57,624 nt of DNA from Chthoniobacteraceae bacterium (GTDB lineage: Bacteria > Verrucomicrobiota > Verrucomicrobiia > Chthoniobacterales > Chthoniobacteraceae): positions 1 through 57,624 of the forward strand of contig CANJNZ010000023.1 of NCBI GenBank assembly GCA_947476045.1, in the 5' to 3' direction. The position numbers were made by a program, and so were the translations under genes. Of this stretch, positions 33,059 to 51,471 are shown piece by piece. The notes below the pieces were generated by a model, which saw only the letters and a list, made by a program, of their open reading frames with translations, had not been told where the DNA came from and did not search any database. The first letter of the stretch is position 1; the number at the start of each line of letters is the position of its first letter.

Positions 33059-33475
33059 TCAGCCCCTTGGCGCAATGAGCGTCACCTTTGGAAAATAGGT
33101 CGAGTAACGCGCATCATCACGCGAGAGGAGTTGGTGACCCGCCACTTCAGCGTGGGCACCGATATAGAAATCCGGCAACGGCGTATCCCGCGATCCACCC
33201 CGCAGCCGGTATTCGCGATGTGCAGCGGCGGCGATGGTGGATGCTTCAAATGGGAGCGGTTCTTTCAAAAATCCCGCTTGTGCCAGCCACGCATCGAGCC
33301 TCGCCCAATCGAAATCAAAAGCTGGGGCCACCTCCGCGCAGATGATGGGGTTCACCGCTACCGCGCCACTCGTCTTTGCCTTTCGTAATTCGGTGGACGA
33401 CCACGCCAGTCAGCGCTCGTCGGCAGTCAGGATGTCCAGGAGGACATTTGTATCCACGAGAGTCGTCCCACTCAT
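33059..33475 (-). pseudogene. VapC-like PIN toxin with in-frame stop codon
   Basis: A 138-codon PIN-domain ribonuclease frame that is interrupted at codon 22 by TGA (33410-33412), while everything else stays in frame. Before the stop it reads MSGTTLVDTNVLLDILTADE with the first PIN aspartate (D8). After the stop it continues LAWSSTELRKAK, then CAEVAPAF, PDFYIGAHAE and LLSRDDARYS, so the acidic residues and fold are all present. Relatives often have Trp at the interrupted position, so one TGG to TGA change would explain it. The frame begins in a one-base overlap with the antitoxin stop (TAATG). Sequencing error is the main alternative; recoding is unlikely because TGA is a normal stop in this window. 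Confidence 0.8.
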
Positions 33476-48563: not shown

Positions 48564-49814
48564 ATGTTGACGCTCGAAAAATTCACCATCGGAGTAGGCG
48601 ACCGCTTCGCTCATCAGGCCAAAGCCCAGCTCCGCGCCTGCCAGCTAATCGCCGCGGACGGCGTGGATGTCATTCCCGTTTGGAACAAATCCAACCGCGA
48701 ACACACCTTCATCGGCAGCGAACCTGCATCAGTGCTCGCCGCCGCGAAGGCCGCAGTCGAGGCGCTCGATTGGAAAAAGGGCTGGCACGTGGATGCCGAC
48801 CATATCCGCCTCGAAACCGTGGATCGCTTTCTCGATTCGTCTGATTTTTTTACAATAGATGTCGCCGACAGCATCGGCCAGCCGGCGGAAGCGAAGGACG
48901 TGCAGGCGTTCGTCATGCGCCACTCGGAATTGATCGGCACGCACAACATCACTGGAGTGAGCGCGGCCTTTCACACCACCGAAGAAGACATCGTTCGCAT
49001 CGCAGGCAAGTATCTCCGCGCCGCCCACGACGCAGGTGAAATTTACCGCCATATCGCGCATAAAATCGGCAAACGCCACTTCATCGCCGAGGTCTCGATG
49101 GATGAAACCGACTCGCCGCAGACACCGCCGGAACTGCTCGTCATCCTCGCCGCCCTCGCAGACGCACGAGTGCCCGCGCAGACCATCGCGCCGAAATTCA
49201 CTGGCCGCTTCAACAAAGGCGTGGACTACGTCGGCGACCTCGTGCAGTTCGAGCGCGAGTTCAACGACGACCTCGCCGTCATCGCCCACGCCGTCGCGCT
49301 CTACGGTCTGCCGAAAAATCTCAAACTCAGCGTCCACAGCGGCTCGGATAAATTTTCCCTCTACCCCATCATCCGCCGCGCCCTTGCGCGCACCGGCGCA
49401 GGCGTCCATGTAAAAACAGCGGGCACCACATGGCTGGAGGAACTGATCGGCCTCGCCGAAGCCGGCGGCGACGGCCTCGCACTCGGCAAGGAAATCTACG
49501 CCTACGCGCTCGAACACGTGGACGAACTCTGCGCGCCCTACGCCAGTGTCATTGACATAGACCGCGCCAAACTCCCCTCCTCCGCCGTCGTCAGCAAATG
49601 GAGCAGCGCGCAATTCGCCAACGCCCTCCGCCACATCCCCGGCCATCCCGAATTCAACCCCAGCCTCCGCCAGCTCCTGCACGTCTCATTCAAACTCGCC
49701 GCCAAAAAAGGCGCAACCTACCTCGACCTACTGAAAGCCAACGAAGCCATTGTCGCGAAAAACGTCTCCGAAAACCTCTACGCCCGCCACCTCCGCCCGC
49801 TCTTCGTGGGCTGA
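48564..49814 (+). CDS. Tagaturonate epimerase family protein (UxaE-like)
   Basis: A 416-aa enzyme like UxaE, which interconverts D-tagaturonate and D-fructuronate in hexuronate catabolism. Seen are EKFTIGVGDRFAHQAKAQLRAC, DVIPVWNKSNREHTFIGSEP, HVDADHIRLETVDRFLD, HFIAEVSMDETDSPQTP and IAPKFTGRFNKGVDYVGD, with His, Glu and Asp residues that could bind metal. It ends LYARHLRPLFVG, and the same 37 bases recur after the VapC gene downstream. A toxin-antitoxin module now separates it from the sugar isomerase gene that probably followed it directly. Confidence 0.88.
   Translation: MLTLEKFTIGVGDRFAHQAKAQLRACQLIAADGVDVIPVWNKSNREHTFIGSEPASVLAAAKAAVEALDWKKGWHVDADHIRLETVDRFLDSSDFFTIDVADSIGQPAEAKDVQAFVMRHSELIGTHNITGVSAAFHTTEEDIVRIAGKYLRAAHDAGEIYRHIAHKIGKRHFIAEVSMDETDSPQTPPELLVILAALADARVPAQTIAPKFTGRFNKGVDYVGDLVQFEREFNDDLAVIAHAVALYGLPKNLKLSVHSGSDKFSLYPIIRRALARTGAGVHVKTAGTTWLEELIGLAEAGGDGLALGKEIYAYALEHVDELCAPYASVIDIDRAKLPSSAVVSKWSSAQFANALRHIPGHPEFNPSLRQLLHVSFKLAAKKGATYLDLLKANEAIVAKNVSENLYARHLRPLFVG
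49776..49812 (+). repeat. 37-bp direct repeat, copy 1 (3' end of the epimerase gene)
   Basis: Perfect 37-bp match to 50611-50647. In this copy it encodes the last codons of the epimerase (LYARHLRPLFVG) and is followed by the TGA stop. Together the copies enclose the FitA/VapC module of 798 bp. Confidence 0.95.
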
Positions 49815-49856
49815 TGCGGTAGTCTCCGCACATCGCAGAACGCACCAGAAGGCTGC

Positions 49857-49884
49857 TTGCCTGAAGAGAGCTTTTTGCTACCCT
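49857..49884 (+). promoter_or_regulatory. Possible promoter of the FitA/VapC module
   Basis: TTGCCT (49857-49862) and TACCCT (49879-49884) are 16 bases apart and 10 bases before the antitoxin ATG. The match to -35/-10 is modest (four and three of six). It would let the inserted module carry its own promoter with a very short leader. Confidence 0.25.
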
Positions 49885-49893
49885 TCCGACACT

Positions 49894-50172
49894 ATGCCAG
49901 CACTCGTCATCGAATCCTTTCCCGAAGACCTCCACGCCAAACTCCGGCAGATTGCAGCCGCCCACCGTCGGTCAGTCACACAGGAAACCATCCACCTGCT
50001 CGAAAGCGCCATCGCTGCGGAGAAAAAACCCGCGCCTGCCAGCACCGCTGGGCAATCGAAATGGGCAAGCCGGAAGCTCCTGCCCGAATACGAAGCCATG
50101 ATGAAAGCGGGAGCCTTTTCAGGCGGAACCGACTCCACCCAGATCATCTCGGAAGAACGCGACGCCCGATGA
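49894..50172 (+). CDS. FitA/Phd-like antitoxin (ribbon-helix-helix)
   Basis: A 92-aa protein beginning MPALVIESFPEDLHAKLRQIAAAHRRSVTQE, which is the ribbon-helix-helix DNA-binding pattern of FitA/VapB antitoxins (short strand, two helices). The C-terminal tail (KLLPEYEAMMKAGAFSGG) would bind the toxin. It overlaps the VapC ATG by the ATGA coupling. It is expected to autoregulate the pair. The start at 49894 is the first ATG that gives the domain. Confidence 0.85.
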   Translation: MPALVIESFPEDLHAKLRQIAAAHRRSVTQETIHLLESAIAAEKKPAPASTAGQSKWASRKLLPEYEAMMKAGAFSGGTDSTQIISEERDAR

Positions 50173-50609
50173 CCGTCGCCTATTACGACACTACTTACCT
50201 GCTCAAGCTCCAGATGGCCGAGGCCGGGACTCCCGAAGTCCGTGCCCACGCCGCCACAGTATTCGAGATTCACTCCGCCCAACACGGCAGGGCCGAATTC
50301 ATCTCCGCCGCATTCCGAAAAGTGCGTGAAGGAGTTGCCACGCTCGCGGACTACCAGCGGCTCATCACCCAATTCAACGCCGACATCGCCGCCGATATCA
50401 TCCGCCTCCTCCCGCTCACCGACGCCGTCCTCGACCGCGTGGAAGCAGCATTCGCCACTGCCCCGGCCACCACCTGTCTTCGTGCCGCCGACGCCCTTCA
50501 CCTCGCCACAGCAGCGGAAAACGGCTTCTCCGAAATCCACTCCAACGACAAACACCTCCTCGCCGCCGCCCCGCTTTTCGGCCTGCGCGGCGTGAATGTG
50601 ATTCCATAA
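50169..50609 (+). CDS. VapC-type PIN domain toxin
   Basis: A 146-aa PIN-domain ribonuclease. Acidic residues of the site are visible in YYDTTYLLKL (Asp7), GRAEFISAAF (a Glu) and RAADALHLATAAENG (an Asp), with SNDKHLLAAAPLFGL at the end. It is intact and coupled to its antitoxin. The stop lies directly at the start of the second 37-bp repeat copy, so the module fits exactly between the copies. It may stabilise the region by addiction (inference). Confidence 0.9.
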   Translation: MTVAYYDTTYLLKLQMAEAGTPEVRAHAATVFEIHSAQHGRAEFISAAFRKVREGVATLADYQRLITQFNADIAADIIRLLPLTDAVLDRVEAAFATAPATTCLRAADALHLATAAENGFSEIHSNDKHLLAAAPLFGLRGVNVIP

Positions 50610-50610
50610 G

Positions 50611-50647
50611 CTCTACGCCCGCCACCTCCGCCCGCTCTTCGTGGGCT
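50611..50647 (+). repeat. 37-bp direct repeat, copy 2
   Basis: Identical to 49776-49812. Here it would encode the same last residues, followed in frame by TAA, 8 bases before the isomerase ATG at 50656. It looks like the original end of the epimerase gene left behind after the module entered. Confidence 0.95.
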
Positions 50648-50655
50648 AAACACCA

Positions 50656-51471
50656 ATGAAATCCGCCATCACCATCTGCCTTGTTCCCGAAGCTCGCAGC
50701 GGGCCGTTTGTTTTTCATGAGGGGCTTGCAGATGGTTGCGCGCGGGCGGCAGCGCTTGGCTTCGATGCGGTCGAGATTTTTCCACCGGCGGCGAATGCCG
50801 TGGACATCGCGGAGTTGCAGGGGCTGCTCGACCATCACGACCTGAAAGTCGCCGCTATCGGCAGCGGCGGCGGATGGGTGATTCACAAGTGGACGCTCAC
50901 TTCTCCCGATGCGGAAATCCGCGCGCACGCACGCGATTTCATCCGCTCGATTATTGATCTCGCTGGTGGCTTTGGTGCGCCTGCGATCATCGGTTCCATG
51001 CAAGGGCGCGTGGAAAATGGCGTCACCCGTGAGCAGGCGCTGGAGTGGCTCGGCGAAGCACTCCACGACCTCGGCGAATACGCCGCCGCCACGCACGGCA
51101 CGAAGCTCCTTTACGAGTCGCTCAATCGCTACGAGACGAATCTTTTCAACAACATCGCCGACACCGCTGCGTGGCTGCGCACGTTGAAAACGCCCCGCAT
51201 CCGCATTCTCGCCGATCTCTTCCACATGAACATCGAGGAAGCCGACCTCGCCGCCGCACTCCGCGCTGCGGGCGCACTCGTCGGACACATTCATTTCGCC
51301 GACTCAAACCGTCGCGCCATCGGCCTTGGTCACACCAACGCCGCACCCATCGTCGCCGCACTGCGCGAGATTGGTTACGACGGCTATCTCTCGGCGGAAA
51401 TCCTCCCGCTCCCCGACGCCGACACCGCCGCGCTACAGACCATCGAAAGCTTTCGCAAATTTACCGCCTGA
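50656..51471 (+). CDS. TIM-barrel sugar isomerase/epimerase family protein
   Basis: A 271-aa enzyme of the xylose-isomerase-like TIM-barrel family (hydroxypyruvate isomerase or sugar-phosphate epimerase type). Catalytic and metal residues fit GSGGGWVIHKWTLTSP, LLYESLNRYETN (a Glu), RILADLFHMNIEE (Asp, His), GHIHFADSNRRAIGLG (His, Asp) and YLSAEILPLPD (Glu). It sits between the epimerase (with the inserted module) and an RbsD/FucU gene in one direction, so it probably belongs to a hexuronate or deoxysugar pathway. The exact substrate is open. Confidence 0.88.
   Translation: MKSAITICLVPEARSGPFVFHEGLADGCARAAALGFDAVEIFPPAANAVDIAELQGLLDHHDLKVAAIGSGGGWVIHKWTLTSPDAEIRAHARDFIRSIIDLAGGFGAPAIIGSMQGRVENGVTREQALEWLGEALHDLGEYAAATHGTKLLYESLNRYETNLFNNIADTAAWLRTLKTPRIRILADLFHMNIEEADLAAALRAAGALVGHIHFADSNRRAIGLGHTNAAPIVAALREIGYDGYLSAEILPLPDADTAALQTIESFRKFTA

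Follow-up and report, generated by a model that had tools for sequence, protein, structure and literature searches.

Integrative elements that enter at the 3′ ends of genes or tRNAs duplicate and rebuild the gene end, as e14 does in icd. How small toxin–antitoxin (TA) modules that lack a recombinase move from one chromosomal site to another is, to our knowledge, an open question. For restriction–modification systems, a passage of PMC3874152, citing Nobusato 2000 and Furuta 2010, states that some of them insert with long target duplications of variable length, on the order of 100 bp; a near-identical statement on restriction–modification insertion appears in a passage of PMC3031569, and in the portion of PMC2654758 available to us Nobusato is cited for restriction–modification systems only. 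No report of insertion with long target duplication was found for TA genes, which, given partial literature coverage, is weak evidence that none exists.

The window, by which we mean the whole stretch of 57,624 nucleotides that was analysed, carries a FitA-like/VapC-like module at the 3′ end of the tagaturonate epimerase gene uxaE (Table 1). Specifically, the final 37 bases of uxaE, through the first base of the stop codon, recur after the VapC gene at a spacing of 835 bp, and the two copies are identical, as a preliminary description of this DNA had claimed. Chance origin is ruled out by dinucleotide shuffles of the window, as the repeat pattern, with up to 3 mismatches allowed, has 0 occurrences in 100 of them. 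At present uxaE stops with TGA (49812–49814). Deleting 835 bp in silico, that is, the module and one copy, reproduces the uxaE ending in TAA that had been described, with the stop at 50647–50649, followed by a 6-base gap, ACACCA, and the ATG (50656) of a xylose-isomerase-like gene. The previously given distance of 8 bases to this ATG holds if counted from the repeat end and fails if counted from the stop. The top NCBIfam model for the downstream gene is 5-keto-L-gluconate epimerase, with 234.7 bits, under the cutoff of 300.

Table 1. Features of the uxaE locus, in positions of the window.
Feature	Position	Strand	Evidence
Tagaturonate epimerase gene uxaE	48564..49814	+	Pfam UxaE PF16257, 191.6 bits, cutoff 27.1; translation
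37-bp target duplication, copy 1, uxaE end	49776..49812	+	repeat search
Unique inserted DNA, 798 bp	49813..50610	+	missing at same place in G001, G006
Upstream region, TTGCC-like then GCTACC-like stretch, partly common to related modules	49851..49893	+	10-module alignment
FitA-like ribbon-helix-helix antitoxin, 92 aa	49894..50172	+	Pfam PF22513, 31.9 bits, cutoff 27
VapC-like PIN-domain toxin, 146 aa	50169..50609	+	Pfam PIN PF01850, 37.1 bits, cutoff 23.6
37-bp target duplication, copy 2, joined to native TAA and intergenic bases	50611..50647	+	junction as in G001, G006
Xylose-isomerase-like TIM-barrel gene	50656..51471	+	Pfam PF01261

The 37-bp repeat leaves the exact insertion point ambiguous, and the overall gain is 835 bp. 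The gene content of the insert is the FitA and VapC genes, which overlap by 4 bp. Residues D7, E43, D108 and D127 of the VapC-like protein, which we take to be catalytic, are invariant among 13 aligned sequences, the window's included, and toxin activity is inferred for this protein. The stretch upstream of the antitoxin gene is probably a promoter/operator, and a simple scan of 49700–50760 gives no sigma-70 site. In line with the earlier statement that the module lacks an integrase or transposase, the scanned genes of the insert (FitA and VapC) include no recombinase, integrase or transposase gene, and Phage_integrase has 0 matches on the window's contig, C23, and 12 elsewhere in the genome, G000. 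A plasmid, phage or viral contig as vehicle was considered and rejected, the VapC having no match in plasmid, phage and viral collections, and the search for donor DNA of the module found none. Elsewhere in the window, at 33110–33460 on the minus strand, a second PIN-domain match contains an in-frame TGA and is possibly a decayed toxin.

The site without the module is preserved in relatives. UxaE has a match in 58 of the 97 genomes searched, G000 included, and in the nearest relatives, G001 and G006, the UxaE protein is 96% identical to that of the window. In both, the uxaE end consists of a single 37-bp copy, TAA, ACACCA and the isomerase ATG, which is the empty site that had been expected in close relatives. 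When the window flanks are joined without the insert and aligned to these genomes, the G001 alignment is gapless for at least 2.5 kb on each side, bar one 3-bp gap approximately 1.2 kb downstream of the junction. Divergence from G001 is 3–11% per 150-bp bin within 1 kb of the junction and 6% in both adjoining bins; the sole clearly raised patch, with 10–18%, lies at 1.05–1.5 kb downstream. The G006 alignment covers approximately 1.3 kb upstream and stops approximately 140 bp downstream, beyond the junction. Because G001 aligns without gaps through the junction and shows no extra divergence beside it, the event in the window is an insertion with target duplication relative to the empty site. 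Import of a uxaE tract along with the module is unsupported, as the bins next to the junction show ordinary divergence, and an assembly artefact is unlikely, since both junctions would need to be chimeric simultaneously.

The uxaE loci of 29 relatives, 25 with approximately 1.5 kb of downstream sequence and four (L003, L006, L027, L028) with at most 316 bp, were searched for the two arrangements that the preliminary description had named as refuting. A module without the second copy does not occur there, a VapC of the window's family (A1) lying beside uxaE in 0 of the 29. Nor are two copies seen without the module: the 37-mer is recognisable, with at most 9 mismatches, as one copy each in 10 of the 29 relatives and has no match in the other 19. 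A repeat that predates the module is thus not seen in G001, G006 or these loci. The empty site in G001 and G006, together with the lack of such a VapC at the 29 loci, indicates that the module is the derived state. Among repeat-flanked modules, the window's is the only one with a proven empty site.

The preliminary description had regarded the arrangement as an oddity for a TA pair, yet straddling repeats recur at other modules. Using a profile of 13 VapC sequences, with which loci were both collected and recognised, 131 distinct modules were gathered from part of the listed VapC places, and 117 of them have enough flank; hits of fewer than 100 model positions, hits with no stop on the contig, duplicates and the 14 of 131 modules with short flanks are left out. 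A repeat is counted at a local-alignment score of at least 40 between two flanks of each module, one of 500 bp whose end lies 250 bp ahead of the toxin and one of 400 bp that follows the toxin. By this measure, a direct repeat straddles 15 of the 117 modules and is missing at 102. Pseudo-inserts in the same loci reach the threshold in 9 of 1511 cases, from 6 of 111 loci, and for mismatched pairs (n = 1755) the 99.5th percentile score is 29 and the highest score 153. Gene-bounded controls are fairer, because pseudo-inserts overlap one another in position and lack independence; 4 of 122 such controls (64 loci) carry a repeat (odds ratio 4.3, Fisher p = 0.008), and 2 of these 4 are of TA type, involving Fic/Doc and DUF5615/PIN-like genes. 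An earlier, smaller survey had found repeats at 7 of 71 testable modules, from 80 loci.

Repeats also flank toxins beyond this VapC family. Samples of 30 ParE and 30 PIN loci were used, in which flanks were too short at 5 ParE and 2 PIN loci for the antitoxin-first geometry and at 3 and 2 for the toxin-first geometry. Repeats are present at 3 of 25 ParE loci (mismatched null, 2 of 600) and 2 of 28 PIN loci (0 of 756) in the antitoxin-first geometry, and at 4 of 27 ParE loci (1 of 702) and 1 of 28 PIN loci (0 of 756) in the toxin-first geometry. In G000 itself, 4 of 25 toxin loci, the window included, reach a score of 40, and in the own-genome mismatched null 6 of 600 score at least 36, the highest being 724. 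Loci L339 and L342 of this genome look like dispersed or arrayed repeats; at L342 (G000:C26, reverse strand, approximately 1551–2795), repeats of approximately 60–77 bp lie between small genes, including one for a ParE-like toxin, in a cassette-array-like arrangement. The similar duplications that flank some other TA pairs suggest a route by which such pairs, with no transposase of their own, can become established in genomes.

By inspection, the repeat is the 3′ end of a neighbouring gene in 6 of the 15 modules, uxaE being one. At L072 of G002, a genome of the window genome's genus, it is the end of a DUF1501 gene and comprises 74 bp at 89% together with an additional piece; because DUF1501 genes form a large family of paralogues and the locus contains a third DUF1501-like fragment, this repeat could be a paralogue remnant. 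A DUF1501 search defines no empty site for G002, the paralogues being too numerous. Outside the 117, a DUF1501 locus of G007 (L074) holds a damaged module, whose copy 2 extends some bases beyond the gene end into sequence of the module's left side, which is unexpected for simple target duplication. At L132, L147 and L159, VapC-family modules directly follow apparent DUF1501 gene ends, as judged by eye. At L080 (G074), where the module sits between a type I restriction R subunit gene and a putative hsdS, the R subunit end is present in strongly diverged copies of approximately 60 bp. At L215 (G004), 40 bp repeat the end of a convergent downstream gene for a DUF1585/1592-type protein; no empty site was found for this case when one was sought, and elsewhere in G004, on C91, 121 bp of the gene end recur upstream of a further PIN-like gene, recognised by eye. 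At L212/L321 (G062), an intact ychF is accompanied by its 3′ end in two further copies, one of only approximately 14 codons, which surround the counted module and a second module, recognised by eye, with a truncated toxin; ychF, the end copies and both modules span 6536–9075 of L321. A VapC of the window's family also directly adjoins ychF at L208 and L221. Finally, at L211 (G018), the repeat is the 3′ end of an ORF without Pfam match.

The other 9 of the 15 (L205, L213, L044, L101, L036, L217, L136, L214, L153) have unclear, intergenic or dispersed repeats; that of L205 is palindromic, and that of L213 is found at four places in one 5-kb locus. The repeat flanking L217 is seen by eye twice more at another VapC locus, L226 (G008), with an apparent second TA unit between. 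In the ParE and PIN samples, gene 3′ ends are repeated at L272 (ParE; 280 bp, 86%) and L313 (PIN; 110 bp, 91%); at L268, L271 and L289 (ParE), the repeated DNA is of another kind or intergenic. At L290, 187-bp repeats (98%) span the start of a radical-SAM gene, that is, a 5′ end, copy 2 keeps the gene intact and, like that of the window, begins 1 bp past the toxin stop. Repeat lengths at the other loci, where no empty sites were found, range from approximately 30 to 280 bp. BLAST at E 1e-4 finds no sequence common to the repeats of different loci, bar dispersed or paralogous ones, a core below approximately 11 bp being beyond its reach. The hexamer TGATGC, following the coding end of the host gene, was also considered as a constant left boundary; it seemed common to the window and L072/L074 but, by eye, most other loci lack it, and the idea was dropped. 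At L093, L126, L128, L130, L138 and L153, the upstream ORFs resemble one another, by eye, in their ELVTWLVIKDGKTD-like tails, and the TGA of the tail overlaps the module's putative −35 (TTGACGG).

We favour, with a probability of roughly 0.58, an insertion with long target duplication in which a fragment was captured at a staggered break in the uxaE end, followed by fill-in, under near neutrality. Specifically, we infer that a staggered break within the last 37 bp of the chromosomal uxaE would have captured a promoter–antitoxin–toxin fragment and that fill-in at both ends would have doubled these 37 bp. The upstream copy would then complete the epimerase, with TGA as its stop, and the downstream copy would keep the junction with the following gene in its native form, so the insertion would be nearly neutral; addiction may have helped to retain the module. 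The empty site and the intact reading frames support the earlier proposal that the module entered the end of uxaE and that the duplication rebuilt the gene. That one copy completes the broken gene in the gene cases is expected of insertion with long target duplication if selection removes gene-breaking insertions. Weighing against this reading are the short 37-bp duplication, the dispersed or intergenic nature of several of the 15 repeats, the possible paralogue origin at L072, the overrunning copy 2 at L074, the modest odds ratio over gene-bounded controls, the many modules and G000 toxin loci with no repeat, and the lack of a donor in the search.

The 37-bp repeat at a gene 3′ end does look att-like, and the module might instead be the remnant of an integrative element, with the uxaE 3′ end as attB, the 37 bp as att core and a tyrosine integrase that was lost or acts in trans. 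The 12 Phage_integrase matches elsewhere in the genome could supply the latter, and the ychF locus, with two modules among three end copies, resembles tandem islands. However, the insert has no integrase and stops 1 bp past the toxin stop, which leaves no space there for further remnants, and the VapC has no match in the plasmid, phage and viral collections. Moreover, variable repeat lengths, the lack of a common BLAST-detectable sequence and the duplication of both 3′ and 5′ ends (L290) argue against one integrase core. We therefore consider an integrative remnant improbable, and the analogy to integration at tRNA ends drawn in the preliminary description is not favoured on the same grounds of length, sequence and the L290 5′ end.

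An identical structure would also result from homologous integration, in which a near relative's uxaE end, borne together with the module on a circle or fragment, recombined by a single crossover at the gene end. The copies at L080 and at L072 differ mutually, like donor and recipient ends, and the 121-bp gene-end copy near another PIN-like gene in G004 implies that gene ends may travel with modules. Yet the copies in the window are identical to each other and match G001 at 37 of 37 positions, and divergence at the junction is ordinary; in addition, the donor would need a module at uxaE already, which leaves the first insertion unexplained, and we regard this route as unlikely. In a two-step rearrangement, gene end and module would be tandemly duplicated and the second module then lost, and G027 (L078) does have part of a second VapC gene in tandem. 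Such a route is highly improbable, as the second deletion must restore the ancestral junction to the base, and G001 shows this junction to be native.

Compared with the type II modules FitAB and VapBC, the module shares a ribbon-helix-helix antitoxin, a PIN toxin and overlapping genes, and no unusual feature is seen in its proteins. Like integrative elements that occupy the 3′ end of a gene or tRNA, it duplicates and rebuilds a gene end; it differs in having an insert without integrase, and the repeats differ in their variable length, in the absence of a common sequence detected and in one 5′-end case. With respect to the long-target-duplication insertion of restriction–modification systems, the differences are that TA genes of Verrucomicrobiota are involved, that the duplication in the window is 37 bp as opposed to approximately 100 bp, and that the proof in the window comes from a single empty-site comparison. 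The likeness comprises an addiction-type gene pair, flanking direct copies of the target, the lack of an own recombinase and, if the repeats at other loci are target duplications as well, variable duplication length. It is conceivable, if doubtful, that TA modules have their own transposase-free insertion route with long gene-end duplications, common to unrelated toxins and to restriction–modification genes, which would make addiction modules host-sparing minimal mobile elements. Insertion with long target duplication, if true, would also explain how TA modules can lie inside operons without broken genes. Taken together, the exact empty site, the family-wide enrichment of repeats and the reused ychF end make the insertion model of restriction–modification systems testable for TA modules.
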